Below are positions 1 through 29,668 of a stretch of 64,000 nucleotides of DNA, piece after piece. Position numbers and translations under genes: made by a program. Numbering within the stretch: the stretch's first letter is position 1; every line of letters begins with the position of its first letter. The notes under the pieces were generated by a model that saw nothing but the letters and a program-made list of their open reading frames with translations, did not search any database and was not told the origin of the DNA. This DNA comes from Helicobacter sp. MIT 99-5507 (GTDB lineage: Bacteria > Campylobacterota > Campylobacteria > Campylobacterales > Helicobacteraceae): positions 124,001-188,000 of the forward strand of contig NZ_NXLO01000001.1 in the NCBI RefSeq assembly GCF_003364295.1, in the 5' to 3' direction.

Positions 1-659
1 ACTATAAAAATATCATCTATTTTTAAATCTTGTGGTGGAATATCAATGATATTAGAATCTTGCTTTAAGTGGGCGATATTTGGTGCGATTTGCAATAGAT
101 TTTTTATTGATTTTTTTCCTTTTTGCACCGCTAAATCTTGCAGAAACTCTCCTGTTTTGAAAAATAACATTACAGCCACTGCCTCTTCATATGCTTGAAT
201 TGCAAATGCAGAGATTGTAGCAATAAACATTAATGTATTTTCATCAAAGAAATCTCTTTTTTTGATATTATTAAATGCACTTTTAAATATATCTTTTCCA
301 GAGATTAGATAAATAATTATTAAGATTCCAATCGATATATATTTTGTAATCTCATTATCTACAACATGCAATACAATAACAGCTATTAAAAATACTGCTA
401 TTAATCCACTTAAAAAACATAACTCTTTTTTTGTATCAAATTCATCTGTTGTTGGATTTTCTTTGCTTATATTTATATTTGATTCTATAGATTTGATAGT
501 TTTTATTGCTAGATTGATATTTGTTGTATCAATTTCTAATATATTATTGTTTGTGTCAATATGCACATAGCTTACACATTCTAGTTTTTGTAATGCACTT
601 TCTATTTTATTAGCACAAGAAGAACAGCTAATATTTGTAATATAAAATTTTTCTTTCAT
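1..659 (-). CDS. Heavy-metal-translocating P1B-type ATPase, N-terminal part (cut by window edge)
   Basis: The reading frame opens with ATG at 659 and runs off the left edge, giving about 219 residues. Residues 1-65 form an HMA-type metal-binding domain with the motif SCSSCANKIE, where the CxxC pair would bind a soft metal ion. A helical membrane region starts near residue 85 and continues to the edge; the visible part ends before the phosphorylation loop, so the transported metal (Cu, Zn or Cd) cannot be decided. Such pumps export metal from the cytoplasm across the inner membrane. It is transcribed away from ssrA. Family assignment is firm; substrate is open. Confidence 0.85.
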   Translation of the reverse strand, partial: MKEKFYITNISCSSCANKIESALQKLECVSYVHIDTNNNILEIDTTNINLAIKTIKSIESNINISKENPTTDEFDTKKELCFLSGLIAVFLIAVIVLHVVDNEITKYISIGILIIIYLISGKDIFKSAFNNIKKRDFFDENTLMFIATISAFAIQAYEEAVAVMLFFKTGEFLQDLAVQKGKKSIKNLLQIAPNIAHLKQDSNIIDIPPQDLKIDDIFI

Positions 660-705
660 AATATCTCTTTTGATATAAAATTAAGGTTTGATTATAACAA
701 AATCC

Positions 706-734
706 TTGACAATTTTATTTTTAAGGATTAGAAT
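706..734 (+). promoter_or_regulatory. Putative housekeeping promoter of ssrA
   Basis: TTGACA at 706-711 is followed by a 17-bp spacer and TAGAAT at 729-734. Transcription would begin near 741, about 45 bases before the mature tmRNA 5' end at 786, which fits a precursor trimmed by RNase P. A full -35 box is unusual in this phylum, where -35 sequences are weakly conserved, and would suit a very abundant RNA. Confidence 0.55.
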
Positions 735-785
735 GATAAGGTTTTTTAAAGTTTTCTTATTTATGCCTAATTTATTCCTAATTAT

Positions 786-1157
786 GGGGCTGATTTGGCG
801 TTCGACAGAAAGTAGAAGATAAAGATTGCATACCAGTTTGATTGATACTGTAAAATCATCACATAAATTTAAACGCAAATAATAAAAAACTAGCTCCAGC
901 TTACGCAAGAGCAGCGTAAGTTTAACAATCCTTTTTGGAGCGGAGTGATATAGATTCTAGCTATATATTTACTCTTCATTTTTGCTAGATAGCTATTGTA
1001 TTAGTTGCTTTGATAATACATAGTGAAGTCTTTCAAAGTGGCTTAATATCATCGAAGCTTGTGATATAAGCAAATATAAAGCTTCATTTTTTAAGTATGT
1101 CGAGGTTTTTATTGGTCTATTTTTTGGACTGGGGTTCAATTCCCCACAGCTCCACCA
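786..1157 (+). ncRNA. ssrA: tmRNA (ssrA), one-piece
   Basis: The 5' end GGGGCTG (786-792) pairs with CAGCTCC (1147-1153), followed by the discriminator A and an encoded CCA (1155-1157). The 3' T-arm segment GGACTGGGGTTCAATTCCCC is the standard tmRNA signature, and the 5' end carries the D-loop-like TTCGACAG. The RNA is about 372 nt with a tag-coding segment at 875-919. It rescues ribosomes stalled on broken mRNA together with SmpB and marks the product for proteolysis. It lies alone between the divergent metal ATPase and a MerR gene. Confidence 0.96.
875..919 (+). other. tmRNA proteolysis-tag reading frame
   Basis: Inside ssrA, the resume codon GCA at 875 starts a frame that reads ANNKKLAPAYARAA and ends with TAA at 917-919. 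The layout A-N-N-x-x-x-APAYA-x-AA resembles the known Helicobacter pylori tag. The terminal Ala-Ala is the usual protease-recognition end. Confidence 0.9.
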
Positions 1158-1275
1158 AAATCTTTTATATTATTTATTTTTACATTTTTAAGATATTTTA
1201 TTTAGTTGTTTTTATTATTTAGTGCTTTTTATATAGTGTATTTTTCGGATATTAATTGCTTGTTTTGAGGCAATT

Positions 1276-1689
1276 TTACACTTCATCAAATCCTTTACAT
1301 TTGTAGTTTTCAGGCTTTTTCCCAAGCCTTATAAATTCATCATAAAATTCTACCTTACCCTCAAGCATATTTTCTATAAGCATTAAACGTTTCATTTCCT
1401 CACGCACAATCTCAAGCTGTTTTTTAATCATTGCTTGACGTTTTGTTAGATTTGATTTATCTTCACCACTTGAGAGAAGTTTAATATATTCATGCACTTT
1501 CTTGATGCTCATACCACCTTTGCGTAGGCAATCTATCCAAATTACTTGCTCTAGTCCTTTTAAAGAGAAGTAAAGCACTCCATTTTTATCTCGCTCTAAG
1601 TTATCAAATAGTCCTTTGCTTGCCCAAAAACGCAATGTCCGTGAAGGAATATTAAGTCTGCGTTCAACATCGATGATTGTATAAGCTAT
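1276..1689 (-). CDS. MerR-family transcriptional regulator with apparent ATA start
   Basis: The frame encodes an N-terminal MerR winged helix (AYTIIDVERRLNIPSRTLRF, then the wing region with ERDKNGVLYF), a linker with GMSIKKVHEYI, and a long dimerisation helix near residues 75-115. No cysteines sit in a metal-binding arrangement, so it resembles the general stress or aldehyde type rather than a metal sensor. The expected first codon before AYTI is ATA (1687-1689), five bases after an ideal AAGGAG. The first orthodox start in frame is a TTG at 1635, which would remove half of the DNA-binding helix. It is either translated from a non-standard start or recently inactivated by a G-to-A change. 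Confidence 0.8.
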   Translation of the reverse strand: MAYTIIDVERRLNIPSRTLRFWASKGLFDNLERDKNGVLYFSLKGLEQVIWIDCLRKGGMSIKKVHEYIKLLSSGEDKSNLTKRQAMIKKQLEIVREEMKRLMLIENMLEGKVEFYDEFIRLGKKPENYKCKGFDEV

Positions 1690-1741
1690 AGATTCTCCTT
1701 ATTAAATTTTATTTTAGAATGTATTATCTACTTTTTTATAT

Positions 1742-1786
1742 ATTATATATCCTTACACCTAATGTTTGTCAAGGCTTTAGATGTAA
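1742..1786 (-). promoter_or_regulatory. MerR-type promoter with 19-bp spacer and dyad
   Basis: Read on the minus strand, TTGACA (1772-1767) and TATAAT (1747-1742) are separated by exactly 19 bp, the over-long spacer typical of MerR-activated promoters. An inverted repeat with arms TTACACCTAA (1753-1762) and TTAGATGTAA (1777-1786) matches at nine of ten positions and overlaps the spacer and -35 region. Transcription would start near 1735 and run into the MerR gene, suggesting autoregulation. Confidence 0.65.
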
Positions 1787-1999
1787 TATAGGATTATTTT
1801 TTTAAGTTGTTTTAATGTGATTACAAAAAAATATAAATAGAGATTCTATCCCTTGTATAATAAAGAGTTTTTTGGTGTAAAAAAAGATAGAAAAGTTTGC
1901 AAGCCCTAAAAATAGTCCTTGAAATAAGGCAGGATTTAGAATAAAGAATTTTAAATTAGATTCTCAAAGGTAAGAATTTTACCTTTAAGAATGATTAAT

Positions 2000-3184
2000 T
2001 TATTTGATTAGACTTTCAGTTATACTTGCGATTTCAAGCTCTTCATCGGTTGGCACTATGAGAATTTTTACTTTTGAGCTTTGTTTTGAGATGAGTTTAA
2101 GCTCCCCTCTTAAGCCTTTATTTATATTTTCATCAAGTTCAAAGCCAAGATGGGCAAGTTTAGCGCATACAAGCTTTCTTATATCATCAGCATTTTCACC
2201 AACTCCAGCTGTAAAGATCAAAGCATCAGTGCGAGGTAATATCGCAAAATATGAGCCTATGTATTTCACAAGGCGGTAGATATACATATCTTTTGCAAGT
2301 TTAGCTTTTTGATCACCTTGTTCAATAAGATTCTCAACATCTCTTAAGTCATTGTGCCCACAAATTCCCAAAAAACCACTTTTTTTATTCATTATAACAT
2401 CAAGTTCTTCTGTAGTGTAGTGTAAAATTCGCACCAAATGGGACATAATCGCAGGATCAAGATCTCCACATCTTGTGCCCATCATAAGCCCTTCTAAAGG
2501 CGTAAAGCCCATAGAAGTATCTATGCTTTTACCATTTTCTATAGCACAAAGACTTGCTCCATTGCCAAGATGTGCAGTGATAGCATTAAATTTATCATAT
2601 TCAATGCCTAAAAACTCAGCTGCCTTTTTACTCACATAAGAATGAGAAGTGCCATGAAAGCCATATTTTCTAACACCTTCATCTTCATAAAAATCATAAG
2701 GTAAAGCATACATAAAAGCATGTTCTGGCAAACTTGAATGAAAAGCCGTATCAAACACAGCTACATTTTTGACCTTTGGAGCAGCTTCCATCATAGCACG
2801 AATGCCTATGATATGAGCTGGATTATGAAGTGGGGCGATGACTGCAACACGGCGAATTTCTTTTAATACTTTATCATCGATAACACAAGGCTTGGTAAGG
2901 TTTTTGCCTCCATGGACTACTCTATGACCGCAACCATCAAGTTCATTTAAATTTTTTAAAAATCCAGTTTGCCTAAAAAATGATTCTATCATCTCTACAC
3001 CCCGCTGATGGTTTGGCACTGGATCATCAAGGCTTACTTTTTCTTGAGTTTTTAAACTTTGTAGGGTTGTTTTACCTTGATGTTCACCTATTTTTTCTAT
3101 TACTCCGTTAGCAATAGGGTATTTGTCTTCATAAAGTTTGAATTTTAAAGAGCTTGAACCTGAGTTTAAAACTAAAATTTTCAT
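2000..3184 (-). CDS. ackA: Acetate kinase AckA
   Basis: Interconverts acetyl phosphate and ADP with acetate and ATP in the cytoplasm, the last step of acetate overflow or the first of acetate uptake. The 394-residue length is standard. Visible landmarks are the N-terminal NSGSSSLKF phosphate-binding motif, GHRVVHGG, the FDTAFH segment, GFHGTSH and LGNGAS, all typical of the acetate kinase fold. The gene follows pta with only nine bases between them, so the two form an operon. The pair contains few of the AGAWTCT words that are frequent elsewhere. Confidence 0.97.
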   Translation of the reverse strand: MKILVLNSGSSSLKFKLYEDKYPIANGVIEKIGEHQGKTTLQSLKTQEKVSLDDPVPNHQRGVEMIESFFRQTGFLKNLNELDGCGHRVVHGGKNLTKPCVIDDKVLKEIRRVAVIAPLHNPAHIIGIRAMMEAAPKVKNVAVFDTAFHSSLPEHAFMYALPYDFYEDEGVRKYGFHGTSHSYVSKKAAEFLGIEYDKFNAITAHLGNGASLCAIENGKSIDTSMGFTPLEGLMMGTRCGDLDPAIMSHLVRILHYTTEELDVIMNKKSGFLGICGHNDLRDVENLIEQGDQKAKLAKDMYIYRLVKYIGSYFAILPRTDALIFTAGVGENADDIRKLVCAKLAHLGFELDENINKGLRGELKLISKQSSKVKILIVPTDEELEIASITESLIK

Positions 3185-3193
3185 TATTTGTCC

Positions 3194-4705
3194 TTATTTG
3201 TTATCTTTTGCTTGTATAGCACTTAATATCACGGTATTTACTACATCATCGACCAAACATCCTCTACTTAAGTCATTTACTGGCTTTTTAAGTCCTTGTA
3301 ATATAGGACCTATAGCTAGGGCATTTGCTGTTCTTTGCACGGCTTTATAGCCTATATTTGCAGCATTTAAATCAGGGAAAACAAAGACATTTGCTTTGCC
3401 TGCGACTTTAGAATTAGGCATTTTACTTTTTGCAGTTATCTCATCAATAGCTGCATCAAATTGTAAAGGACCATCAATAAACAAATCTGGATACCTTTCT
3501 TTAGCTATTTTTGTCGCTTCCTTGCTTGCTTCTACACTCTTTCCACTGCCACTATCTCCACTTGAGTAAGATAAGATTGCAACCTTTGGATTAAGCCCAA
3601 ATGCTTCGGCTGTATTGGCACTTGAATAGGCTATTTCAGCTATTTGTTCTGGAGTTGGATTTGGAGTTACTGCACAATCAGCAAAAACAAGCAAGCTATC
3701 TTCTAAACTCATAAAAAACATACCAGAAACGGTTTTTACACCTTCTTTTGTTTTAATAAGTTGCAAAGCAGGGCGTATGGTCTCAGCTGTAGTTGTGCTT
3801 GCTCCACTTACCATTGCATGAGCTTTATTAGTATAAACCAAAAGCGTGCCAAAATAAGTTCTATCTAAAACTAATTTTTTAGCTTCCTCTAGGCTCATGC
3901 CTTTAGCCTTTCTTGTTTCATGTAATTTATTAGCAAATTCTTCATGAAAAGGTGAATTTAGTGGATTTAAAATTTGCACATCTTTAAGTCTAAGTTCTAA
4001 CTTATCAGCTTTTTGGCGAATTTCTTTTTCATCACCAAGTAATATAATATCAACTACTTCAAGATTTTTAAGTATCTCACAAGCTTTTAAAATTCTCTCA
4101 TCATCACTTTCTGGTAAGACTATGATTTTTTTATCTTTTTTGGCCCTTTGTATGAGATCATATCTAAAGCGATTAGGTGTTAGGAATTGATAATTATCAA
4201 ATTCTTTAAAATCTTGCTTATTAAACCACTGATCAATAATGATAAAATTCTCATGATTTAGTCTTTTTTTAAGATAATCTTTACTCATCAAGGCATTATC
4301 TTTTTCAACTATGGCATAAATTGGAGCATTGAGTTCTTTGGCAAGTCTAGTATTGATTTCAAAAGAACCTAGAATCCCAAACCTTGAAAAACCAGCCACA
4401 AAGACAAAATCATATTCCATGGTAAGTTTTTCATAATCATTAATTATTTTATCTATAAAGATATTTTGATCTTCATTGTAAGATTTAAGTCCATTTTGGA
4501 AATTAAAACTATAAGCACTTGCTAGGTCTTGTTTTAAGTCAAAGTCTTGGATGAAGATTCTTAAGCTTTCTATGGTGTCTTCACTTACCACAGGACAAAA
4601 AAGAGCAAGTTTTTTATATTTTTGGCTTAAAAGTTCAAGTAACTCTGCAGTGATTTTGCGATTTAAATCTTTATGGCTTGAGCGGATAAGATAGAGGCTT
4701 TTCAT
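3194..4705 (-). CDS. pta: Phosphate acetyltransferase Pta
   Basis: Converts acetyl-CoA and phosphate to acetyl phosphate and CoA, supplying AckA. The 503-residue protein has an N-terminal P-loop-like region of about 190 residues and a C-terminal phosphotransacetylase domain with the motif SGASTTTAETIRPALQLIKT and VFPDLNAANIGYK near the end. An AGGAG-like site precedes the ATG at 4705. A very AT-rich, gene-free stretch lies upstream and probably contains the operon promoter. Confidence 0.96.
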   Translation of the reverse strand: MKSLYLIRSSHKDLNRKITAELLELLSQKYKKLALFCPVVSEDTIESLRIFIQDFDLKQDLASAYSFNFQNGLKSYNEDQNIFIDKIINDYEKLTMEYDFVFVAGFSRFGILGSFEINTRLAKELNAPIYAIVEKDNALMSKDYLKKRLNHENFIIIDQWFNKQDFKEFDNYQFLTPNRFRYDLIQRAKKDKKIIVLPESDDERILKACEILKNLEVVDIILLGDEKEIRQKADKLELRLKDVQILNPLNSPFHEEFANKLHETRKAKGMSLEEAKKLVLDRTYFGTLLVYTNKAHAMVSGASTTTAETIRPALQLIKTKEGVKTVSGMFFMSLEDSLLVFADCAVTPNPTPEQIAEIAYSSANTAEAFGLNPKVAILSYSSGDSGSGKSVEASKEATKIAKERYPDLFIDGPLQFDAAIDEITAKSKMPNSKVAGKANVFVFPDLNAANIGYKAVQRTANALAIGPILQGLKKPVNDLSRGCLVDDVVNTVILSAIQAKDNK

Positions 4706-5360
4706 GAATTCTCCTTTGTAGTTGTGGGCTCTTAGAACTTCTTTTCTTTAGATTTTGCAAACTATAGAAAGTAATAATTTAGTTTAAAAAAAATTAAAAA
4801 GTGGTTAAAAAAATAATTTCTTTAAATTTCACTCTTTAGTGTTGTGATTGCTTTACTATTGGTAAAATAATGATCCACTTATAATCAAAAATTAATCATT
4901 CATATAAGTAGAATCTGCACATATTTATAGCTATAAAATTAATACAATATATATATATGATATAGTTGATAAATTTTTAGAAGATAAAGTTTTTAAAATA
5001 AATAAAATCTAAATTGTATAATTTTTATTAGATTCTACTTTTAAGTAAGATTAATTGTTAGATAAACCTTTTATTTTGCTTTATTGTTTTTTAAATTAAA
5101 TAAAATGTTAATTATAGTCTTTCCATACTTTTCATACTTAATTAATAAATTTTAGATATTAATAAAAATTAATTAATTATAAAGATAAGCAAAAAATTCA
5201 TAAAAAATTAATTTATTTGTTATTTTATTGCTCAAATAATCTAAATTTTAACTTAAATTGTTTTATTTTTGATTTTTATTGGTTTTAAATTTTATAAGCC
5301 TTGTATTCACATGAGATGAAAAACAAGAGTAGTCTCAAATTTCAAACTAAGTAGAAAACG
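4706..5360. other. AT-rich intergenic region
   Basis: No credible gene is seen in this 655-base stretch between divergent pta and the broken thiolase gene. Base composition is extreme, with long A/T runs and a TA-dinucleotide stretch near 4950-4970. It probably holds the two divergent promoters; I could not fix either with confidence. No DnaA-box cluster was recognised. Confidence 0.5.
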
Positions 5361-6171
5361 ATGCAAGAAGTTGTAATCGTAAGTGCAAAAAGGATAGCTT
5401 TAGGCTCATTTATGGGAAGTTTAAAAAACACTAAAGCAGTAGATTTAGCTAGTGCAGTAGCAAAGGCTATATTCGCTGAAACTAAGCTTGATTTAAAGCT
5501 TGTAGATGAAGTAATTTTAGGACAAATACTTCAAGCAGGAGTAGGGCAAAATGCTGCTAGACAAGTGTTGATAAATAGCGGTATAGATAATAGTAAAAGT
5601 GCTTTTACTATTAATAAAGTTTGTGGTTCTGGGTTGAAAGCCATAGGACTTGCAAGACAGAGTATATCCTTAGGTGAGGCTGAAGTTATTTTAGCAGGTG
5701 GAGCTGAAAATATGTCCATGTCTCCTTATTTGTTAGAATGGATTAGAGAAGGTTATAAAATGGGTGATAAAAAAAATCATTGATTCTATGATAAAAGATG
5801 CTTTGACTTGTGCTTTTAATAACTATCATATGGGTATAACAGCTGAAAATTTAGTCAAAAAATATAGTCTTACTAGAGAAGAATAAGATAAATTTGCTCT
5901 AGATTCTCAACAAAAAGCTAAAAAAGTATTAGAAAATACAAAAATACATATAGATGATATAGATTTAATAGAAGCAAATGAAGCATTTGCAGCGCAGTCT
6001 TTACGTGCTTAAAAGAACTAAACCCAAAAGATACAAGTAATATCAATGTAAATGGTGGTGCCATAGCATTAGGACATCCTGTTGGTGCAAGTGGGGGCAA
6101 GGATAGTTGTAAGTTTGCTTCATGAGATGAAAAGAAGAGATGCAAGATATGGGTTAGCGACCTTATGTATA
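5361..6171 (+). pseudogene. Acetyl-CoA acetyltransferase (thiolase) pseudogene
   Basis: The first 137 codons are a good thiolase N-terminus, including the active-site segment KVCGSGLKAI and the AGGAENMSMSPY motif. A frameshift near 5780 follows, then stops at about 5884 and 6010. Later remnants read DDIDLIEANEAFAAQSL, then [15 protein letters not shown] and [21 protein letters not shown], the C-terminal thiolase signatures with the catalytic His. The middle of the enzyme (about 130 residues) is deleted. The remnant runs straight into CoA-transferase sequence at the shared GlyGlyGly region. It was the first gene of an acetoacetate-using operon now dead. Confidence 0.9.
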
Positions 6172-6432
6172 GGTGGTGGAGCAATAGATCTTGTAAATGG
6201 GACAAAAAAAGTAATAGTTGTTATGGAACATTGCGATAAAAATGGTAATTCAAAGCTTAAAAAAACTTGCTCTTTACCTTTGACAGGTGCAAAATGTGTT
6301 GATAGAGTAATAACTGAGCTTGGAGTATTTGACTTTGAAAATGGTAAGATGAAACTTGTTGAATTACAAGGATAAGCCACTTTAGATGAAGTTAAGGCTA
6401 AGACTGAAGCTAGCTTTGAAGTGTGCTTGTAA
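6172..6432 (+). pseudogene. 3-oxoacid CoA-transferase subunit B, C-terminal remnant
   Basis: The frame reads [40 protein letters not shown] and LVELQG, the end of the beta subunit of succinyl-CoA:acetoacetate CoA-transferase (ScoB). A TAA at about 6373 interrupts LQG-ATLDEVKAKTEASF, and the frame closes at 6432. The 5' part of scoB and all of scoA are missing; the deletion joined the thiolase GGG to the scoB GGA. An AAGGAG for the next gene overlaps the final stop. Confidence 0.88.
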
Positions 6433-6438
6433 GGAGAT

Positions 6439-7656
6439 ATGATGATAGGAAAGATCTCATCGTTTATGTCGCGGTTGGTGCAAAGATATTTGCCCGACCC
6501 ATTAGTTTTTGTTGTTCTTTTAACTATTATTGTTTTTGTTTGGGGACTATGTGTAGTTGAACCAAAAGAAGGACAAAATTCTATTATGGCTATAGTTGGC
6601 TTTTGGGGTGATGGATTCTGGAGTTTTCTAGCTTTTACAACTCAAATGGCTATGATAGTTGTTACAGGTTTTGCTCTAGCAAGCTCTGATTAAGTAAAAA
6701 GACTTTTAAAATTTCTTGCTTCTTTTGCAAAAACACCAAAACAAGGTGTGGCATTAGTATGTTTTTTGGAGGATTAGCAAGTGCAATAAATTGGGGCTTT
6801 GGGCTCGTTATTGGTGCGCTTTTTGCCAAACAAATTGCTAGAAATTTAAAGGCAGTTGATTATGGTTTGCTAATAGCTTGTGCATATATAGGCTTTATGA
6901 CTTAGGGTGGAGGATTGAGCGGATCTATGCCACTTGCAGCAAGTGATCCAAGTAATATCATAGTGCAAAAACACCTTGGTGCCAAAAGAACCTAAGGTAG
7001 TCGATCCTGTGCTTTTAGCTGAAGAACCAAGCTATCAAAAAGAACTTCCAAAAGATGCAACTCCTGCATTAAGACTTGAAGAGAGTAAAATTTTAGCTAT
7101 CATCACGGTTGCGCTTGCTACTGCTTATTTGGTGTATCATTTTTATAATAAAAGCTTCTTAAATGGCTTAAATAGTGTTAATCTTTTGTTTATAACTATT
7201 GGTTTGTTTTTACACAAAACACCTATGGCTTATATGAGAGCCATTAAACATGCTGCCGGAAGTACAGCTGGAATCTTAATATAATTTCCTTTTTATGCAG
7301 CAATTGCTGGAATAATGGATCATTCAGGTGTTGGTCAAATTATCACCGAGTTTTTTATTGGTATAGCAAACAAAGATAATTACGCTGTTTGGGCATTTTT
7401 TAGTTCTGCTGCAATTAACTTTGCCGTGCCAAGTGGTGGAGGGCATTGGATTATTTAAAGACCTTTTGTAATTGATGCTGCTAAAGAGCTTGGTGCTGAT
7501 TTTGGAAAAGCAACAATGGCAATAGCTTATGGTGAGCAATGGGCAAATATGATACAGCCATTTTGGGCTTTACCAGCTTTAGCTATCGCTGGGCTTTGAG
7601 TGCGAGATATAATGGGCTTTTGTATAACAGCTTTGATATTCTCTTTGCCTATTTAA
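6439..7656 (+). pseudogene. Short-chain fatty acid transporter (AtoE family) pseudogene
   Basis: The ATG at 6439 or 6442 lies behind AAGGAG and begins an AtoE-like membrane protein (LVQRYLPDPLVFVVLLTIIV). Later segments such as SAINWGFGLVIGALFAKQIA, GLFLHKTPMAYMRAIKHAA and SSAAINFAVPSGGGHWII are typical of this family of inner-membrane transporters. The frame is broken by stops near 6691, 6903, 7282, 7456 and 7597 and by frameshifts near 6760 (T-run) and 6985. The order thiolase, CoA transferase, AtoE matches the acetoacetate utilisation cluster of Helicobacter pylori. Confidence 0.9.
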
Positions 7657-7765
7657 GTAAAAACATAAAAATAGTATTATTTTTTGCATATATTATTATG
7701 TATAGATTCTGTATTATCTAAAAAATATTATAAACATTGCATAACAAAGGGCTTTGTAGAATCCT

Positions 7766-8029
7766 TTAAATGGTTATTTTAGCTTTGAGTGTATCAGAAT
7801 CCTTATATTGTTCTCCACAAATACTAAGGCTTTGTAAAACACTCTCCAAGCTCTTTCCTAGCGGTGTTAAAGAATATTCAACTTTTGGTGGAACTTCTGC
7901 ATAGACTTTATGTTTGATAAGTTTTGCTTTTTCTAACTCTCTTAGATTATCTGTTAAAACCTTTTGGGAGATATTTTGATTTTTACTAGCACTTATGGAA
8001 GATTTTAACTCATTAAATCTTTGTAGATC
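7766..8029 (-). pseudogene. HxlR-family regulator, N-terminally truncated
   Basis: Read on the minus strand the frame starts directly after a TAA with DLQRFNELKSS, continues through SQKVLTDNLRELEKAKLI and VPPKVEYSLTPLGKSLESVL, and ends at 7766. These are the recognition-helix and wing motifs of HxlR-type winged-helix regulators. The first 30 or so residues, including the conserved N-terminal Cys, are missing and no start codon is available. The target genes are unknown. Confidence 0.82.
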
Positions 8030-8061
8030 TTAACTTAAATACTATTTGGAATTAACATTAG

Positions 8062-8095
8062 TTTATTTAGGAATATACATAGATTCCTAAATAAA
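8062..8095 (-). terminator. Long hairpin downstream of the membrane protein gene
   Basis: A 13-bp perfect stem (8062-8074 with 8083-8095) encloses an 8-base loop. It lies 12 bases beyond the stop of the gene at 8107 on the minus strand. There is no strong U-run after the stem on that strand, so a terminator is likely but not certain. Confidence 0.5.
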
Positions 8096-8106
8096 AAGTT
8101 ACTACA

Positions 8107-8544
8107 TCACCAATAAAACGCAAGCTTAGCACAAAGCACGATTCCAAAGCCAAGTATTAAAGCAACTGGATGGATAATCTTACCAATAGGATTGCGCTTG
8201 CCTAAAAACTTACAAGATAGCGAGGTGATAACCATAGCAACAATTAATAATGCAAGCAAAACTTTAAACATTAAAAATTGCTGCTGACTAGTTTCAAAAT
8301 AACCAACACTAGAATTTACATAAATACTTAGCATTCCTCCACCAGTAATAACAAGCAATAACAAACATAGTGGCATAATCTTTATTCCACGACTTGAGAT
8401 TGCCCCAAACATTTTATCTGCCATTTCATCGCCCAATTTCTTACGAACAGCTGAAAACAACACCACATCGGTAAAAATAAAACCCAAAAATATAATCGCA
8501 CAAATCAAATGCACGATAAGAAAATACGGATATAACGCAGCCAT
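8107..8544 (-). CDS. Four-helix integral membrane protein (CopD-like)
   Basis: A 145-residue protein with four predicted transmembrane helices (about residues 5-30, 53-75, 88-108 and 122-144). It carries a His in helix 1 (IVHLICA) and one in the last helix (IIHPVA), a pattern seen in small CopD- or haem-binding-like membrane proteins. The exact function is unknown. AAGGA lies upstream of the ATG at 8544. It is single, with the MBL hydrolase gene divergent to it. Confidence 0.7.
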   Translation of the reverse strand: MAALYPYFLIVHLICAIIFLGFIFTDVVLFSAVRKKLGDEMADKMFGAISSRGIKIMPLCLLLLVITGGGMLSIYVNSSVGYFETSQQQFLMFKVLLALLIVAMVITSLSCKFLGKRNPIGKIIHPVALILGFGIVLCAKLAFYW

Positions 8545-8634
8545 AGCTTTCCTTTTAAATTATGTTGTAATGCGCGAATTTTAGTGCAAAAAAATTGATA
8601 AGAAATTGATATGTGATAAGTTTTTTAAAAATTA

Positions 8635-9780
8635 TTGCTTGCGTATTTAATCAAGATTTGTTATCATTTTTCAAGTTTAGATAAGGAGGCTTTATTTGAT
8701 CCTTTAGTGCAAAATAAGTTTTCATATCCAAAAGAATATACAAAAAAACATATAAAATCTTCAACAAATTTTAAAAATAATAAGGCACAAAACAAAGAGC
8801 CTATAAAGCGTATGACGAAGATTCAAAGACAAAATATAGAATCCAAAATACAAAATCAAATATTTCAAACAAAGCCAAAAAATCTTTTAAGAGAGCTTTT
8901 ATCACCTGATAAGGTGGTGATTCCAAGTGTAAAAAGTGATTTATTACAGATTCCAAAAGAAGATAGTTTTGTATGGTTTGGGCATTCTTCTTTGTTTTTT
9001 TGGTTAAATAGCAAGACTTTGTTAATTGACCCCGTGCTTAAATCCTGTGCTTCACCTATTCCATTTCTTATCAAGCCTTTTAGTGGGGCAGATATTTATA
9101 GTGCAAGTGATTTGCCAAAGATAGATTATTTATTTATCACACATAATCATTACGATCATCTAAGCAAATCTACAATTAAAGCTTTGGTAAATAAAATAGG
9201 ACATGTCATCACTCCACTTGGTGTAGGAAAATATCTCATCAAATTTGGTATAAAGCCTTGCCAAATATACGAACTTGATTGGGATGAGAGCTTAAAGCTA
9301 GATTCTACTTTGCGCACTCATTGCCTTACTACAAGGCATTTTTCTGGACGCGGTATTTTTGATAGAAATAAGAGTTTATGGGCGTCATTTATGTTAGAAA
9401 GTAAAGATAAAAAGATATTTTTAAGTGGTGATGGTGGATATGGTATGCATTTTAAAGCAATAGGCAAGAAATTCAAGTATATTGATTTTGCTTTTATTGA
9501 AAATGGGCAATATAATATTAAATGGGCTCAAGTACATTCTTTTCCAAAAGAAAGCTTGCAAGCTTTGAAAGATTTAAATGTAAAAAAAGCAATGCCAATC
9601 CACAACTCAAAATTTAAAATCTCTACACATAATTGGCGTGATCCATTAGATTCATTGCTTGCACTTTATAATAAAGATGAAAATATTAATTTTGCTCTAC
9701 TTACACCAAAAATCGGTGAAATTACACCATTATGGCGGGATATAAATACACCACGATGGTGGCAAGAAATAAAATCTTAA
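8635..9780 (+). CDS. Metallo-beta-lactamase-fold hydrolase, NAPE-PLD/UlaG-like
   Basis: The core (about residues 110-370) has the MBL fold: VWFGHSSLFFWLNSKTLLID, then the di-metal motif HNHYDHL, a later RHFSGRG segment, SGDGGYG supplying the bridging Asp, and a final His in MPIHNSKF. This layout matches the N-acyl-phosphatidylethanolamine phospholipase D-like family, which cleaves phosphodiesters; the true substrate is unknown. The N-terminal ~100 residues are Lys/Asn-rich and less conserved. The first start is TTG at 8635; an internal ATG (MTKIQRQN) is an alternative. Confidence 0.82.
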   Translation: MLAYLIKICYHFSSLDKEALFDPLVQNKFSYPKEYTKKHIKSSTNFKNNKAQNKEPIKRMTKIQRQNIESKIQNQIFQTKPKNLLRELLSPDKVVIPSVKSDLLQIPKEDSFVWFGHSSLFFWLNSKTLLIDPVLKSCASPIPFLIKPFSGADIYSASDLPKIDYLFITHNHYDHLSKSTIKALVNKIGHVITPLGVGKYLIKFGIKPCQIYELDWDESLKLDSTLRTHCLTTRHFSGRGIFDRNKSLWASFMLESKDKKIFLSGDGGYGMHFKAIGKKFKYIDFAFIENGQYNIKWAQVHSFPKESLQALKDLNVKKAMPIHNSKFKISTHNWRDPLDSLLALYNKDENINFALLTPKIGEITPLWRDINTPRWWQEIKS

Positions 9781-9869
9781 GCAAGAATCTATTTCTTAGT
9801 AGATTTATCTAGATTCTCTATAAGTTTTATAGAACTAAATAGCTATAAAATACTTTTAAACTTTTACGA

Positions 9870-10316
9870 GCCGTAGGCACAGCAATTACAACGAACTTTA
9901 TAGATTCATGTCATCATTGCTAGTGTAGCCGTAGGCATAGTGCAGCAAAGCAAAGTTTCTTTAATAATCCCATCTAGTATGTTATCAAATCCATCATTGC
10001 AAAGGAGTTAGCGCAGCGAAATGACTGCGACAATCCCGTAAAAATAAAAGCACAAATCTCAACCTTAGAAAAAATAAATACTGACACACAGAGTGCAGAC
10101 ACACCAACATAGATTGCCACGGGAGGCTAAAGCCTCCGCTCGCAATGACGATAAGAATCAACGTTGATGCCACGATGGCGACAAAAACGCTGTGGTAATT
10201 CATGTGATTTTGCTATTTAGTAACGTTCAAGTCACCCGCAACGTCGTTGCGAGCTATGTGAGCGCAGCGAACGCGAAGCAACCCATATATGCGCCGTAGG
10301 CAACCGCTTATAATTT
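9870..10316. repeat. Degenerate cluster of GCAATGAC-family repeats
   Basis: This stretch has no gene. It contains decayed copies of the dispersed repeat, for example CTCGCAATGACG near 10140 and GTTGCGAGC...GCGAAGCAACCC at 10233-10271, plus several GCCGTAGGCA words near 9870, 9930 and 10304. GC content is visibly higher than around it. Confidence 0.7.
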
Positions 10317-10321
10317 CCTGT

Positions 10322-11146
10322 TTATAAATTATTTTCTAATAAATTTTGTTCTTCCATTGCGCTGTATAAATCATTATAGCCATTAAGTTCGCTCTTGCCG
10401 ACTTCTTTCCATTGATTTAAGCCCTCCATGCTCATCATTTTTGTAATAATTGGGTCATTTTTACGCTCATTTTGGCTTAATAACATCTTAGAAAAGCATT
10501 CGCTAAGCTCCTTGCTAAAGCTAGGTAGCACGGAAAAATTGCAATGACAATAGCCCGGACTTGTCCAAAAGCTCGCAATTTCTGGGTAACTACCCTCCTG
10601 CAAAACGCGTATCCACGTGCTTGAGCCAATCGCGCCCGCGTCAAGCTTACCTTGCTTGATTGCATCAAGCACATCAAATTCGCTCCTGCCCGTGTCGCCG
10701 TGCTTGCCTAAGTCGCTATCGTATCGGACAATTTCTGTCGCAATGCTTGCTTTTTGCAGATAATATAGCGGAATAATCGCTGCTTGTGCGGAATCTCTGC
10801 TGCCTAAGCCAAATTTTTTGCCCCGCAAGTCGCTTAGATTCTGCAAATTGCTATTTTTGCGAGCGACAAATTTTGTCGTAAATTCAATATCTGTGTCGCG
10901 CATAATCAAAGCTTGCGCTTTTTTATGTGTCGCGTGCAATGTGCGAATCCACGCAACATTGGTGTTCCAAGCAATGTCAATATGTCCGCGCAAAAGCGAC
11001 TCAACTTGTCGTTCATAATTACTAAATAAAACATAATCAAGCTTGATTCCAAAATCTCCATCATTTGCATAATCTCGTATAATGTCCCAAATCGGAACAA
11101 CCTTTGGGTCATAGGCTACCGCGCCTAATAATAAAGTTTTTTTCAT
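10322..11146 (-). CDS. PhnD/SsuA-type periplasmic-binding-protein fold, predicted cytosolic
   Basis: The 274-residue protein belongs to the PhnD/SsuA/transferrin-like solute-binding fold: LLLGAVAYDPKVVPIWDIIR, SNYERQVESLLRGHIDIAWN, DLRGKKFGLGSRDS, then GKHGDTGRSEFDV and SPGYCHCNFSVLPS. It has no signal peptide or lipobox, and no ABC permease or ATPase gene is adjacent. That suggests an intracellular protein, perhaps an enzyme that reuses the binding fold as the menaquinone enzymes MqnA and MqnD do. AAGGA precedes the ATG at 11146. It is the last gene of a three-gene co-directional set with the flavoprotein and diiron genes. Function unknown. Confidence 0.78.
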   Translation of the reverse strand: MKKTLLLGAVAYDPKVVPIWDIIRDYANDGDFGIKLDYVLFSNYERQVESLLRGHIDIAWNTNVAWIRTLHATHKKAQALIMRDTDIEFTTKFVARKNSNLQNLSDLRGKKFGLGSRDSAQAAIIPLYYLQKASIATEIVRYDSDLGKHGDTGRSEFDVLDAIKQGKLDAGAIGSSTWIRVLQEGSYPEIASFWTSPGYCHCNFSVLPSFSKELSECFSKMLLSQNERKNDPIITKMMSMEGLNQWKEVGKSELNGYNDLYSAMEEQNLLENNL

Positions 11147-11199
11147 TATTTTCCTTTCTTTTAAGTTAGTTTTGTTTCAAAATGTGCCAATAGGCAATG

Positions 11200-11425
11200 G
11201 ATTCTATAATGTGGCAGCTTCACTGCGATTATATGGATTACTAAATAAACTTCGTTTTCTAAAGAATCTTTGCTTTGCTTCGCACTCCCTGCGGTCGTAT
11301 TGTTCGCAATGACGACAACACGGCGGGTTGCCAACGAGAGCAAACACGCTGGGCGAGATTCGCATAATAACAGAATCCCACGTGATGTCATTGCGAGCGG
11401 AGGCACAGCGAATATGCGCCGCTAT
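11200..11425. repeat. GCAATGAC-family repeat cluster between PhnD-like and flavoprotein genes
   Basis: Copies include GTTCGCAATGACGAC (about 11306-11320) and GTCATTGCGAGCGGAGGC (about 11388-11405) with ATATGCGCCG beside it. The insertion makes a 283-bp gap between two genes that are otherwise arranged like an operon. Confidence 0.75.
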
Positions 11426-11429
11426 AAGC

Positions 11430-12554
11430 CTACTTACGCAAAGCGTCTCCAAGCCATATTTTCACAACATCAAGGCTAGGAGCCATCACTTGTGCAGCAT
11501 AAGAATCGCGTAAATAACGCTCCAATGGAAGCAGTTTACTATATGCCTTACCACCGCCAAGTCGCATCGCAAGGGTGCAAATATCGGTTACAAGCTCGGT
11601 TGCGTTAATTCGGCATGCAAAGATTTTTGTCGCAAAATCTGGTTCATTGTTATCAAGCGCTCGTGCCGCTTCAAACACCAGTGCAAGCGCACTTTGAGCC
11701 TTTGTGTAAAGCGTGGCAAGATGGATTCGCACAAGCTCAATATCACTTAGGGCGTTGCCATTTGTATATTTTCGCTCTTTAGTATGCGCTAAAGCAACGC
11801 TGTATGCAGTATTTCCAAGCCCTGCATAAATCGCACCAAGCCCAGTTACAAAAAACATAGCAACAATTCCTGCTTGTTCTTCACCGCCACCTTCTTCACC
11901 AAGAAGCCATGAATTAGACACTTTTACACCATTGTATTGCACAGGTTTGGAATTATTCCCGCGCATTCCAAGCCCGTTCCACACATTATGTTCATGCACG
12001 AGATTTTCACTATTACGCTCCACAAGCCAATTGTTGCGCTTGCCTTTTAGTTTACATGAATTAGTATATGTAAGGTAAATATCTGCAAATTCTGCAGCTG
12101 TAACAAAGCTTTTACGCCCTTTTAATATCCGAGAATCCCCACTTTCTTCTTCTATCATGTCAGGTGTATCAAAATGTGTTCCCGAACCACTTTCGCTATA
12201 TGCAAGTGCAAATGTAAGCTCACCTTTTGCCACTTTTGGCAATACTTCAGCCTGCAAACTAGGGCTTGCAAATGTGCGAACAGCAGCAATAGCAGTATTA
12301 TGCATCATGTAGCATAAAGCCGTTGTTGCATCAAAGCCAGCTAAAATACTGCAAACCTTAGCATGGTGATAATCCCCGCCGCCTAGTCCGCCAAATTCAC
12401 GAGGCACAAGCAAGCCCATAAAACCTTCCTTACGCAACGCATCATAGGCTTCTTTAGGGAATCTTCCCTCTTCATCAACACTTTTTGTTATAGGTGTAAC
12501 AAATTTACTCCCAAACTCCTTTGTCTGGGTTTCCAAGTTTTCTAATGTTAACAT
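11430..12554 (-). CDS. Acyl-CoA-dehydrogenase-fold flavoprotein, probably monooxygenase type
   Basis: A 374-residue protein with the full acyl-CoA dehydrogenase fold: N-terminal helices ending in GLLVPREFGGLGGGDYHHAK, the FAD-binding segment TFALAYSESGSGTH and GRKSFVTAAEFADIYL, and a C-terminal helical bundle ending RDSYAAQVMAPSLDVVKIWL. At the place where true dehydrogenases carry the catalytic Glu of a YEG motif there is no Glu. This is the pattern of flavin-dependent monooxygenases of the DszC/hydroxylase side of the family, so fatty-acid oxidation is doubtful. AAGGAG precedes the ATG at 12554. The substrate is unknown; neighbours are a diiron protein and a PhnD-like protein. Confidence 0.82.
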   Translation of the reverse strand: MLTLENLETQTKEFGSKFVTPITKSVDEEGRFPKEAYDALRKEGFMGLLVPREFGGLGGGDYHHAKVCSILAGFDATTALCYMMHNTAIAAVRTFASPSLQAEVLPKVAKGELTFALAYSESGSGTHFDTPDMIEEESGDSRILKGRKSFVTAAEFADIYLTYTNSCKLKGKRNNWLVERNSENLVHEHNVWNGLGMRGNNSKPVQYNGVKVSNSWLLGEEGGGEEQAGIVAMFFVTGLGAIYAGLGNTAYSVALAHTKERKYTNGNALSDIELVRIHLATLYTKAQSALALVFEAARALDNNEPDFATKIFACRINATELVTDICTLAMRLGGGKAYSKLLPLERYLRDSYAAQVMAPSLDVVKIWLGDALRK

Positions 12555-12639
12555 ATTACTCCTTTTTGTAATAATCTCACGGATTTTTTAGAATTTAGGC
12601 ATAGCCTTATTTATAAATCCAATATTGCTTATGCTGCCA

Positions 12640-12870
12640 TTGCAAGGAAGAAGCCCATGGTAATCATATTTATTTGACTAGATTACTTCAGTAGCTTTAC
12701 TCCTTCACAATGACGCAAGCGGTGCGCTTCGCTTGAATAATATGGATTACTAAAGAAACTTCGGCTTCGCCTCGTTTTGCTTCGCCGCTTCGTTACACTC
12801 CGCTTTTGCTCGCAATGACAGCTTTTGTAGCCTGCATGCAACAAGCACGGTCGCAAAGCCACAATAGATT
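12640..12870. repeat. GCAATGAC-family repeat cluster between flavoprotein and diiron genes
   Basis: The 337-base gap contains a GCTCGCAATGACAGC copy near 12808-12822, TTCACAATGACGC near 12706, and repeated CTTCGCCTCG-like words. No gene is seen. It carries the same repeat family as the next intergenic gap of this cluster. Confidence 0.72.
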
Positions 12871-12891
12871 TATAAATAAGGCTATAATATA

Positions 12892-14058
12892 TTACATAAA
12901 ATTTGGTGTATGCGCTCGGCTCAAATCTCGTGCTAATTCCTCATCAATTCCACATTCAACAAGCCTTTTTGTTCGATTTTTTTCCATTTGCTTTTTTAGA
13001 TTCTCAACTTGTTCAAATCCATCTTTAAAATGTGCTATACTTTCTCCACCTCCAGCAAAAATAGCAAGCGATTCTATGAGTAATGTAGATTCCCCACTAG
13101 TTTCATCAAGATAAATCTGTCTACGAAAAACGGCATCTTTGAGTATATTAATCTTATTCGGATTTTGCGCAATCGCTGCTTTAACATTACTCATTCCATA
13201 CGCAACATGGCGGCTTTCATCTTTTCTTGCAAGGTTTAAAAGCTTTTTTGTCGGCTCATCTTTGGCACAATCTTCCAAAAACTTCAGCAAATCAATAAAA
13301 GTTCCTTCACCCATAATATGTAACAAAAAGCTTGAAGCAAGATAGTTATCCTCTTTAAATAGGCTAAATAGACTTTGTTGCGTTGTTTTTGTGGAATATA
13401 AAACGCCTAGCCCTGTGGCTTTTGCGCGTTTGGTGAAGGTTTCAATATGCCTAGCTTCATCGCCAATAATGCTAGAAAGCAATAATGGAATCTGCGTAAA
13501 AAATGGCGAAACTTGAGATAAAAATTTAGCAGGAATATATAATGCGCTAAATTCATTCTCTACTAAATAAGTCATAATTTGTGCTATTGCAAATTCTAGT
13601 TTAGTAGGATAGTTTGGAATCTCCTGCCAATCTATATCTTTAGTTGCATTCCATTGTGAATTTTTAGAATCTTCATAGATTCCAGCAAGATTTTTACTCC
13701 ACATTTCATCTTTATTATTTAGCTCAAAATGATAATTTGGGCTAGCAATTTCAGGGCGCACTCCTTGCGGTGCAAGCCCTATTTCATCGGGAGCTAGGGA
13801 TAAATCGTGGTTAAAATGCAAAAATCGTGCAGCAGAATCTTTGCGCAGTTGATAAGCATAGCAATTTTTAAGCTTAGTTTTAGAAATAAATTTTTCACCC
13901 TTGAAGTTACACCATGAAACAAGCTCTTGCTCCAAATTATCATAGGCACTTAGAATCTCGATAAAATCATTTGTGCTAGCAAGCAAAAAGGCATTTTCAA
14001 GACGCAAAAAGAAAGGCTTAGAAATCGGGACATCGTCCATAATAAGGGAATGCTGCAT
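12892..14058 (-). CDS. Ferritin-like diiron protein, AurF/oxygenase-like
   Basis: A 388-residue protein whose residues 150-330 form a ferritin-like four-helix bundle. Probable iron ligands are seen in YLVENEFSALY, SSIIGDEARHIETF, MGEGTFIDLL and RKDESRHVAYG, giving two ExxH pairs plus single Glu residues. The EARH/ESRH arrangement is that of diiron oxygenases such as AurF and the R2-like group rather than iron-storage ferritin. It is the promoter-proximal gene of the set with the flavoprotein and the PhnD-like protein, separated by repeats. The substrate is not known. Confidence 0.75.
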   Translation of the reverse strand: MQHSLIMDDVPISKPFFLRLENAFLLASTNDFIEILSAYDNLEQELVSWCNFKGEKFISKTKLKNCYAYQLRKDSAARFLHFNHDLSLAPDEIGLAPQGVRPEIASPNYHFELNNKDEMWSKNLAGIYEDSKNSQWNATKDIDWQEIPNYPTKLEFAIAQIMTYLVENEFSALYIPAKFLSQVSPFFTQIPLLLSSIIGDEARHIETFTKRAKATGLGVLYSTKTTQQSLFSLFKEDNYLASSFLLHIMGEGTFIDLLKFLEDCAKDEPTKKLLNLARKDESRHVAYGMSNVKAAIAQNPNKINILKDAVFRRQIYLDETSGESTLLIESLAIFAGGGESIAHFKDGFEQVENLKKQMEKNRTKRLVECGIDEELARDLSRAHTPNFM

Positions 14059-14177
14059 AGTTTCATCTTAGGTTTAAAATACACAGATGGGCAAGCTGTC
14101 TGTGGTTTGCACACGGCAAAATAGCAGACAATTATAAATACTAAAAGCTTAAAATTTTATAAAAATACTAAAAAGCC

Positions 14178-14555
14178 TTAGTTTTTCGAAAAAATAAAAT
14201 CTTTAAAAAGCTCTTGGAGTTTATAAGCGCTAAATGGTAGATATTCAGCTATGCTAAAGCCTACTATTTTTGAGCTTTTATCAAGTAAATTTAAAATTTG
14301 GGCAAGTTTTTCAAGATTCATTTTGCCACCACCGCTACCATCGCCCACTAAAGTGGGATTTGCAAAATAAGTATCGCTAAAATACTCTACATTTAACACA
14401 TCTATATCAAAATACACTAGCAAAGCATCAAATTTATCTATAATTTTTTTAACTCCTCATTACTTACAAACTCTTTATCTTGCACTTTATATGACACGCC
14501 TTTTTTATCTAAAAATTCTTTTTGATAACTATGAATCTCTTGCAAGCCTACTTTC
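14178..14555 (-). pseudogene. Arginase/agmatinase-family fragment
   Basis: The readable C-terminal part has VYFDIDVLNVEYFSDTYFAN and GDGSGGGKMNLEKL followed by SIAEYLPFSAYKLQELF, matching the end of arginase-superfamily hydrolases; DIDVL holds metal-ligand Asp residues. Upstream remnants (GLQEIHSYQKEFL) are in another frame because a seven-A run near 14441 needs eight A for continuity. All earlier domains are missing: the fragment abuts an hsdR remnant at about 14530-14556. Confidence 0.75.
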
Positions 14556-15296
14556 ATAATACAGCGGCACAGTAGCCCCGTCCTCCACAGCCTGCTTCAT
14601 ATCATAAATATCGATATAATCCCCAAAAACACTACGCGTATTGGCATCATCTTTTTCTATAGGAGTTCCGCTAAAGCCTATATAAGTGGCATTTGGCAGG
14701 GCATCACGCACATTTTGCGCGTAGCCATAGCTGATTTTTTCGCCCCTTAATCTCGCCTCAAAACCATACTGCGTGCGGTGAGCCTCATCAGCGATAACGA
14801 TAATATCCTCTCTATTGCTTAAAGTCTCAAAGCGTTCATTCTCATCTTTAAATTTTTGCATAGTTGAAAAGATAATCCCACCTTTTATGCCCTTTAGCAC
14901 ACTTTTAAGCTCTTGGGTAGAATCTATGTGTTTTTGGAGTGGTTCTTAAAAGCTCGCTTGAGTGGCTAAAGGTGGTAAAAAGCTGATTATCTAAGTCGTT
15001 TCTATCGGTTAAAATTACAAGGTTGGATTGCTTAGCCTATCTAAAGCCTTAGCTGTAAAAAACACCATAGAAAGGCTTTTTCCACTACCTTGTGTGTGCC
15101 AAACTACGCCTCCTTTTTGCTTGTTGCATTGTCATTGCGAGCTGATTTATCAGCGTGGCAATCCACACTCATCGCCTTTTGCACGCTTAAAATGGCTTTA
15201 TTTACAGCATAGTATTGATGATAAGCAGCGATTTTTTTAATGATTTTACTTTGCGCATAGCCGTTTTATCAAGGAATTTCACATTTTCATAAGTGA
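14529..15296 (-). pseudogene. Type I restriction endonuclease subunit HsdR, broken internal fragment
   Basis: Minus-strand remnants in order are KIIKKIAAYHQYYAVNKAI (about 15190-15245), the Walker A motif VVWHTQGSGKSLSMVFF (about 15065-15110), [14 protein letters not shown], and the helicase motifs IADEAHRTQYGFEA and YIGFSGTPIE (14620-14800), ending YYESRLARDS at 14529. Frameshifts and a repeat insertion break it, and both the nuclease N-terminus and the C-terminal domain are absent. It probably once partnered hsdM and hsdS, now 13-20 kb away. Confidence 0.88.
15131..15164. repeat. GCAATGAC-family repeat inserted in hsdR
   Basis: A single compact copy, GTCATTGCGAGCTG then ATTTAT then CAGCGTGGCAATCC, lies between the AYHQYYAVNKAI and WHTQGSGKS coding segments of the dead hsdR. 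It introduces an in-frame TGA. Confidence 0.8.
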
Positions 15297-17222: not shown

Positions 17223-17618
17223 CTAGAATCTTTGTTCAGAATATAGCACATTTTGGAAATTTATTGCTATCATTTGTGCTCTTTGTAAAATAATATTTAC
17301 ATTTTCAGGAGTAAATATATCATTTAAGCTTTTTTCAAAAAGCTCTAGCCAGATATCAAAAAATTCACGTGGAAAAGGTGGTAGTTCAAGATGAGCTTTC
17401 ATAGGATGTCCTTTATAATCTCCCTCACCAAGTAGCATTCCTTGCCAAAAATTACCTATTTTAGCTTTGTGAGCATCCCAAGCTTCTTCACTTGTGCCAA
17501 CTTTTGAATTAAAAATTGGCCCTAAGTTCTCATCTTTTCTAATCTTTTCATAAAAGACATTCATCAGTTTATCTATGCTTTCTTTATCTATTTTGGTGCT
17601 TTTTTTGTTACAATTCAT
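17223..17618 (-). CDS. ctb: Group III truncated haemoglobin (Ctb-like)
   Basis: A 131-residue 2-on-2 globin. GPIFNSKVG, AHKAKIGNFWQGMLLGEGDY, the proximal-His region KGHPMKAHLELPPFPREFFDIWLELF and the length fit the group III truncated haemoglobins. In Campylobacter jejuni the homologue Ctb moderates oxygen and nitrosative stress. Here it is divergent from an NssR-like Crp/Fnr regulator 62 bases away, the same arrangement as in C. jejuni, so NO-responsive control is likely. Gene name by analogy. Confidence 0.9.
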   Translation of the reverse strand: MNCNKKSTKIDKESIDKLMNVFYEKIRKDENLGPIFNSKVGTSEEAWDAHKAKIGNFWQGMLLGEGDYKGHPMKAHLELPPFPREFFDIWLELFEKSLNDIFTPENVNIILQRAQMIAINFQNVLYSEQRF

Positions 17619-29185: not shown

Positions 29186-29335
29186 ATGGATTGCTTCGCC
29201 TACGCTCGCAATGACAAAAAGGCAGAATCTGGATTGCTTCACTTCGTTCGCAATGACAAGAGAAAAAGCTCTCGCAATGACATTTTCTATTCCGTCATTG
29301 CGAACGAGTGAAACGAGCGAAGCAATCTATAAACA
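29186..29335. repeat. GCAATGAC-family repeat array upstream of GIY-YIG gene
   Basis: Contains four copies of the unit (GGATTGCTTC...CGCAATGAC and reverse), including the 77-bp block 29205-29281 that recurs at 29804-29880, and an inverted copy GTCATTGCGAACGAGTG...GCGAAGCAATC at 29294-29325 just before the nuclease gene. Confidence 0.85.
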
Positions 29336-29349
29336 ACAAAAGGAAGTAA

Positions 29350-29637: not shown

Positions 29638-29668
29638 TTATTAAAGGTTATTATGTGTGGATTGTTGT

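Follow-up and report, generated by a model that had tools for sequence, protein, structure and literature searches.

A conserved gene trio of Helicobacter encoding a TusA-like/diiron fusion protein, an acyl-CoA dehydrogenase-fold flavoprotein, and a cytosolic PhnD-fold protein, with a putative role in sulfur/selenium chemistry

Positions 10322-14058 of a 64,000-nucleotide stretch of Helicobacter sp. MIT 99-5507 (the window; contig NZ_NXLO01000001.1, positions 124,001 to 188,000) carry genes for a ferritin-like diiron protein, an acyl-CoA dehydrogenase (ACAD)-fold flavoprotein, and a PhnD-fold protein, referred to below as the trio. Several described systems resemble parts of this trio. The mycobacterial operon of the Rv1678-Rv1681 type (DoxX-like protein, FadE16/Rv1679, solute-binding protein [SBP]-like Rv1680, and radical S-adenosylmethionine [SAM] protein Rv1681; NF049984/NF049985/NF049973) contains a homologous ACAD-PhnD pair with the same gene order, and the N terminus of its third enzyme is weakly TusA-like. 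The operon differs in that a radical SAM protein takes the place of the diiron protein, in its additional DoxX-like membrane protein, and in the lack of a tie to selD. The sulfur monooxygenases SfnB, MsuC, and DszC use the ACAD fold for oxygenation, not for acyl-CoA dehydrogenation. They share this fold with the window protein, in which the dehydrogenase glutamate is lost, but the window protein is far nearer to Rv1679, and no ssu/sfn-type genes were recognized nearby. The diiron/Mn-Fe oxygenases R2lox, AurF, and VlmB have the ferritin-like fold and the Glu/His ligand set in common with the trio diiron protein, which differs from them in its low identity (12-18% in fold alignments), its added TusA domain, and an invariant C-terminal H-T-x-N-F-M motif. 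The selenium accessory proteins YedF, YedE, and FdhTU resemble the trio in their TusA/SirA-like domain and in their genomic link with selD, which the trio shows in Sulfuricurvum. YedF is a SirA-DsrE protein with a retained CPxP motif (PMC5322559), whereas the TusA domain of the trio has no such cysteine and forms one protein with an R2-like diiron enzyme.

The trio appears to be an undescribed system, because its families are not listed among the selenium candidate genes YedE, YedF, LysR_Se, and DUF3343 of a 2015 comparative survey (PMC5322559), no mention of them was found in the searched passages of the Helicobacter selenoproteome paper (PMC4607533), and no description was returned by other literature searches. 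The searches found no paper treating Rv1679 together with Rv1680 and none linking fadE16 to substrate binding. In titles and abstracts, Rv1681/MoeX appeared in biomarker, exosome, or vaccine contexts, with no function given. To this extent, the proposal of a candidate undescribed system, made in an earlier reading of the sequence only (the sequence-only reading), was supported.

Analysis of the window open reading frames (ORFs) revealed that three minus-strand ORFs fill the interval and match its bounds exactly, in agreement with the three co-directional genes of the sequence-only reading. They are transcribed in the order ferritin-like diiron protein, ACAD-fold flavoprotein, PhnD-fold protein. 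The features of the trio are as follows.

12892..14058, minus strand: TusA-like domain plus R2-like diiron oxygenase/oxidase, 388 amino acids, first gene of the trio (profile, AlphaFold2 [AF2] model, fold match, and ligand pattern)
13830..14058, minus strand: TusA-like N-terminal domain of the diiron protein, CPxP cysteine absent (AF2 model, Pfam, hhalign, and PDB profile match)
11430..12554, minus strand: ACAD-fold flavoprotein, 374 amino acids, Rv1679/FadE16-like, glutamate motif YEGT replaced by VMAPS; probable monooxygenase or oxidase (Pfam, NCBIfam, and alignment)
10322..11146, minus strand: cytosolic PhnD-fold binding protein, 274 amino acids, Rv1680-like, with conserved motifs RDTD, GSxDSxQA, GKHGD, and [YF]xHCxF (Pfam, NCBIfam, alignment, and model)

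The trio is a genuine conserved, co-inherited unit that spans at least three bacterial phyla. The PhnD gene was present in 33 of 121 genomes of the family, to which the 1.53-Mb source genome also belongs. Of 27 related Helicobacteraceae loci that were fetched, 25 had the diiron, ACAD, and PhnD genes adjacent and co-directional, and these loci represented more than six distinct gene contexts. The two exceptions were one contig with a partial set and a Wolinella-like genome (G120) with the ACAD-PhnD pair only. When named genomes were scanned, the same three genes were seen together in Aliarcobacter, Arcobacter, Poseidonibacter, Sulfuricurvum, and Brachyspira. A divergent trio with the order ACAD-PhnD-diiron was found in two further spirochaete genomes, and the same order occurred in about 10 of 19 Planctomycetota loci. 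Because of this recurrence, the clustering is not due to chance. The three protein trees, calculated over 43 loci, were concordant (patristic correlations of 0.92-0.95). The Brachyspira cassette was sister to the Helicobacter cassette in the diiron and ACAD trees and nested inside Helicobacter in the PhnD tree, a position that is expected under transfer of the entire cassette. Searches of plasmids yielded distant actinobacterial pairs and one unrelated ferritin-like protein. The sequence-only reading had named co-occurrence outside the strain, clustering in unrelated taxa, and a search for a transporter partner as checks; when these were run, the trio recurred widely in Campylobacterota, spirochaetes, and Planctomycetota, and no permease or ATPase partner was recognized in the trio neighborhoods examined.

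The diiron gene encodes a TusA-like domain fused to an R2-like oxidase. Residues 1 to 75 form a beta-alpha-beta-alpha-beta-beta domain in the AF2 model, which is the TusA topology. A profile of this domain matched the Escherichia coli TusA chains 1dcj/3lvj in the PDB (E 9e-5), and the cut-off of the Pfam TusA family PF01206 was exceeded in two homologues (L076 and L182), with weak matches in most others. Comparison by hhalign with a small TusA set gave 96.5%; since three of the five rows of this reference alignment were typed by hand, the weight of the assignment is borne by the Pfam and PDB matches, which are independent of it. Residues ~124-388 matched the fold of R2-like ligand-binding oxidase and VlmB (E 9e-6), and the family profiles AurF and DUF455 matched weakly. 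The complete diiron ligand set, consisting of four carboxylates and two histidines, is present in the conserved pattern (E169, E201, H204, E251, E281, and H284).

In the flavoprotein, all three ACAD domains (PF02771, PF02770, and PF00441) were detected above their cut-offs, with a best E value of 7e-19. The nearest NCBIfam model, NF049984 ("Rv1679 family acyl-CoA dehydrogenase"), scored 234 bits at a cut-off of 600, which places the protein outside the curated family. The catalytic glutamate of the C-terminal YEGT motif is aligned to alanine in the window protein. Ordinary acyl-CoA dehydrogenation is unlikely because of this replacement, and the protein is probably a monooxygenase or oxidase instead of a dehydrogenase. 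Matches to sulfur monooxygenases comprised SfnB (87 bits), DszC (47 bits), and MsuC (E 9e-14); nitrososynthase and DnmZ were also among the matches.

The third protein matched the PhnD-fold family PF12974 (E 1.6e-29). Its nearest NCBIfam model was NF049985 ("Rv1680 family SBP-like"), with 307 bits at a cut-off of 400, again outside the curated family, and the best ABC-type SBP model was the "putative selenate SBP" TIGR04553 (79 bits versus 52 bits for PhnD). In Foldseek searches, the structural model (predicted local distance difference test [pLDDT] score, 94.6) matched PhnD1 (E 8e-22), PtxB, ArrX, and AioX, and Thi5 was also among the fold matches. Strand 1 of the model begins at residue 3 and has no N-terminal extension ahead of it; the protein therefore lacks a signal peptide and is cytosolic. 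Alignments to the PDB structures 7s6g and 5lq5 revealed that the loop holding the phosphonate in PhnD1, GSESSTSG, is replaced by GSxDSAQAA. New residues are invariant in the family, namely RDTD, GKHGD, and HC within [YF]xHCxF. The three proteins are thus as the sequence-only reading had described them: a ferritin-like diiron protein, now with a complete ligand set, an ACAD-fold flavoprotein, now with its loss of the dehydrogenase base, and a PhnD-like protein without a secretion signal.

These data bear on two rival roles. The first is transporter-based uptake and oxidation of phosphonate or phosphite, with the PhnD-fold protein as the binding component. Membership in PF12974 and the solved structures closest to the protein (PhnD1/PtxB) agree with it, but the missing signal peptide, the lack of a recognizable permease/ATPase partner or C-P lyase in the neighborhoods examined, and the replaced oxyanion motif (GSxSSTSG by GSxDSAQAA) make it extremely improbable. 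Of the suggested sulfur/phosphonate scavenging, the phosphonate part is thus disfavored, and the sulfur part gains support from the TusA domain. The second is that N-oxygenation (azoxy or nitroso chemistry) serves to make a small secondary or cofactor-like molecule; in this case, an AurF/VlmB-like diiron protein and a nitrososynthase-like ACAD protein would act with the periplasmic-binding-protein-fold protein as an MqnA/Thi5-like enzyme. The weak AurF match, the VlmB fold match, the nitrososynthase and DnmZ matches, and Thi5 among the PhnD fold matches are in line with such a role. It is nevertheless given a low probability: the cassette stands alone, genes for a synthetase, carrier, or transporter were not recognized, the TusA domain is left unexplained, and all trio-bearing genomes of the family have thiC. 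Since thiC was found in 33 of 33 genomes with the PhnD gene of the trio, replacement of the thiamine precursor hydroxymethylpyrimidine (HMP) by a Thi5-like route was rejected, and the proposal of cofactor synthesis in the thiamine sense is not supported.

Genomic context may connect the trio with selenium. Four named Sulfuricurvum loci have a co-directional selD directly upstream of the trio and selB and selA downstream of it; two of these loci also carry a selenocysteine (Sec) tRNA gene. A second selD in two genomes (G364 and G434) sits with MnmH-like and YedF/TusA-like genes, which were identified by eye, and the trio-adjacent selD was therefore assigned to the Sec cluster. Within Campylobacterota, selD was detected in 45 of 45 genomes with the diiron gene and in 238 of 352 genomes without it. 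Among selD-positive Helicobacteraceae, the trio occurred preferentially together with the selenium gene yedE (in 18 of 27 yedE-positive genomes; Fisher p 8e-4, kinship ignored). Most of the checked Brachyspira genomes with the diiron gene also have selD. The idea that the trio is a stand-in for yedE/fdhT was ruled out by the positive association of trio and yedE. Selenocysteine within the trio was likewise ruled out, as the in-frame stop in one locus (L071) is TAA, not TGA. The source genome carries a selenium-type YedE gene about 5 kb ahead of the window and about 15 kb from the trio (G000:C1:118643-119918), and inspection revealed a small DUF3343-like gene adjoining it.

Comparison of more distant loci revealed that the ACAD-PhnD pair occurs with different partners. 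In Actinobacteria, the genes on either side of the homologous pair encode a DoxX-like membrane protein and a radical SAM protein of the Rv1681 family. The N terminus of the latter is weakly TusA-like (loci L079-L125; PF01206 in 8 of 10 fragments, E 0.002-0.3; hhalign, 37%). In the Wolinella-like genome G120 (L014) and in five Planctomycetota loci (L177-L181), the diiron protein is replaced by a MetE-core protein and OsmC. A TusA-MetE core fusion (32.6 bits for TusA, above the cut-off) is encoded near a DsrE-like gene in a further Planctomycetota locus (L187 of G836; 5804-7673 and 7963-9939), where the PhnD homologue has a lipoprotein-like N terminus and no ACAD gene was recognized. Judged from these domain matches, the recurring theme of the partner-swapped loci is sulfur-relay-type folds. 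The sequence-only reading did not raise selenium, and it overlooked the TusA domain, the linkage to selD and Sec genes, and the radical SAM and MetE-core proteins as alternative partners. On a Miltoncostaea plasmid (L043), the ACAD-PhnD pair lies about 7 kb from selD/selA, beside TIGR04282/TIGR04283 arsenosugar-type glycosyltransferases.

The MetE-core loci could also point to O2-dependent methyl or alkyl transfer, in which the ACAD-PhnD pair would make or present a methyl donor in the manner of MesX toward MesD, and the TusA-diiron protein would act in place of the MetE core as acceptor or oxidase. The MesD/MesX core methionine synthase, in which a MetE-core protein acts with an O2-dependent partner, is a precedent that requires O2 and a partner protein (PMC7857596), and the MetE-core loci look analogous. 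The window module, however, has no MetE core, and MesX (DUF1852) belongs to a different family from the trio proteins. Loci with the diiron protein carry no methyltransferase, and of the 33 Helicobacteraceae genomes that have the PhnD gene, 29 already encode a MetE-type protein. Methionine synthesis therefore needs no replacement in these genomes; alternative methionine synthesis as the chief role is disfavored, and methyl or alkyl transfer in general is regarded as improbable.

Sulfur/selenium chemistry is, on balance, the probable function of the trio, and the sulfur/selenium theme is moderately supported. It is favored by the N-terminal TusA-like domain of the diiron protein, by the TusA-MetE core fusion next to DsrE and the weakly TusA-like N terminus of Rv1681, by the conservation and co-inheritance of the unit, and by the selenate SBP model that outscores PhnD for the PhnD-fold protein. 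The selenium version draws on the Sulfuricurvum selD/selB/selA/tRNA-Sec cluster, the selD co-occurrence, and the yedE enrichment. In the proposed mechanism, the PhnD-fold protein would bind a small intracellular organosulfur or organoselenium metabolite and present it to the other proteins. The ACAD-fold flavoprotein, with its dehydrogenase base lost, would oxygenate or oxidize this metabolite by means of reduced flavin and O2. The TusA-like domain may then dock a sulfur/selenium relay partner or the substrate, and the R2-like site with its full set of ligands may release or transfer sulfur or selenium in a second O2-dependent reaction. In Campylobacterota, the linkage suggests that the product would most plausibly go to SelD and selenocysteine synthesis, beside other selenium routes. 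This full model, a cytosolic O2-dependent module that mobilizes sulfur or selenium and supplies selenium to SelD, is put forward tentatively and is considered less likely than not.

Several observations weigh against the selenium-supply model. The adjacency of trio and selD was found in one genus only and may reflect a single event. Counted by genus, the trio-selD association was 12/12 (p 0.004), and many selD-positive genomes have no trio. The thiC control, present in all 33 family genomes with the PhnD gene, gave a nearly equal pattern (p 8e-6 versus 3e-7 for selD), so that selD co-occurrence is weak evidence for selenium. No selD match was obtained in a fragmented draft genome (G423) and a small Aliarcobacter metagenome-assembled genome (G425). 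One of the two spirochaetes with the divergent trio has selD and the other (G618) has no match, and selD is missing from about half of the checked actinobacterial genomes with the related pair. Owing to this patchy distribution, a selenium role, if there is one at all, is probably limited to the Campylobacterota/Brachyspira version. No flavin reductase was recognized near the trio. The sulfur-carrying cysteine of the CPxP motif is absent at that position in every row of the diiron-protein alignment; the TusA-like domain is therefore more likely to serve in docking or recognition than to carry sulfur. The substrate of the trio and its selenium specificity are putative.

The same distribution bears on organosulfur scavenging without selenium specificity, in which oxidation of a thioether or sulfonate-like metabolite inside the cell would free sulfite or sulfide for cysteine synthesis, in the style of SfnB, MsuC, and DszC. 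The related pair in Actinobacteria without selD, the sulfur monooxygenases within the ACAD fold, and the sulfur/thiol proteins TusA, DsrE, and OsmC in the neighborhoods agree with this explanation, but it leaves the Sulfuricurvum Sec gene cluster and the yedE association unexplained, and neither transporters nor genes for sulfur assimilation were recognized beside the trio. It is considered only slightly less likely than the selenium-supply model.

In the window, the genes of the trio are separated by two spacers.

12555..12891, no strand: intergenic spacer between the ACAD and diiron genes, with one copy of a dispersed repeat (repeat count)
11147..11429, no strand: intergenic spacer between the PhnD and ACAD genes, with dispersed GTCATTGCGAGC-type repeats (repeat count)

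These gaps of 337 and 283 bp compare with about 2 to 15 bp in compact loci elsewhere and hold copies of a dispersed intergenic repeat. Its core, GTCATTGCGAGC, had 17 matches with at most one mismatch (0.13 expected), located at window positions 9900-15150, 29200-29860, and 32800-32890. Inspection of the region directly upstream of the trio (14178-14900) revealed short ORFs resembling fragments of the type I restriction protein HsdR and of another gene. A thiolase and a short-chain fatty acid transporter (AtoE-like) at 5361-7284 are apparently split into several short ORFs, and a bacterial-like (truncated) globin (PF01152, 25.1 bits) is encoded at 17223-17618.

The trio may belong to a broader, widespread, and so far undescribed sulfur/selenium pathway, in which a constant ACAD-PhnD pair would work with a third, often TusA-bearing partner that differs from lineage to lineage (TusA-diiron oxidase, radical SAM protein, or zinc methyltransferase) and which would be an O2-dependent selenium source for the selenoproteins of Helicobacter, Brachyspira, and Arcobacter relatives. 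This extension is judged less likely than not. To our knowledge, the way in which selenium is acquired for SelD is poorly known in most bacteria. If the pathway is real, it would be a new entry point for sulfur or selenium in low-oxygen niches, common to gut helicobacters, Brachyspira, arcobacters, and planctomycetes, and would give the Mycobacterium tuberculosis genes Rv1679-Rv1681 a first functional frame. Even without a selenium role, the TusA-diiron architecture and the exchanged third partner make the function of the trio open to knockout testing.

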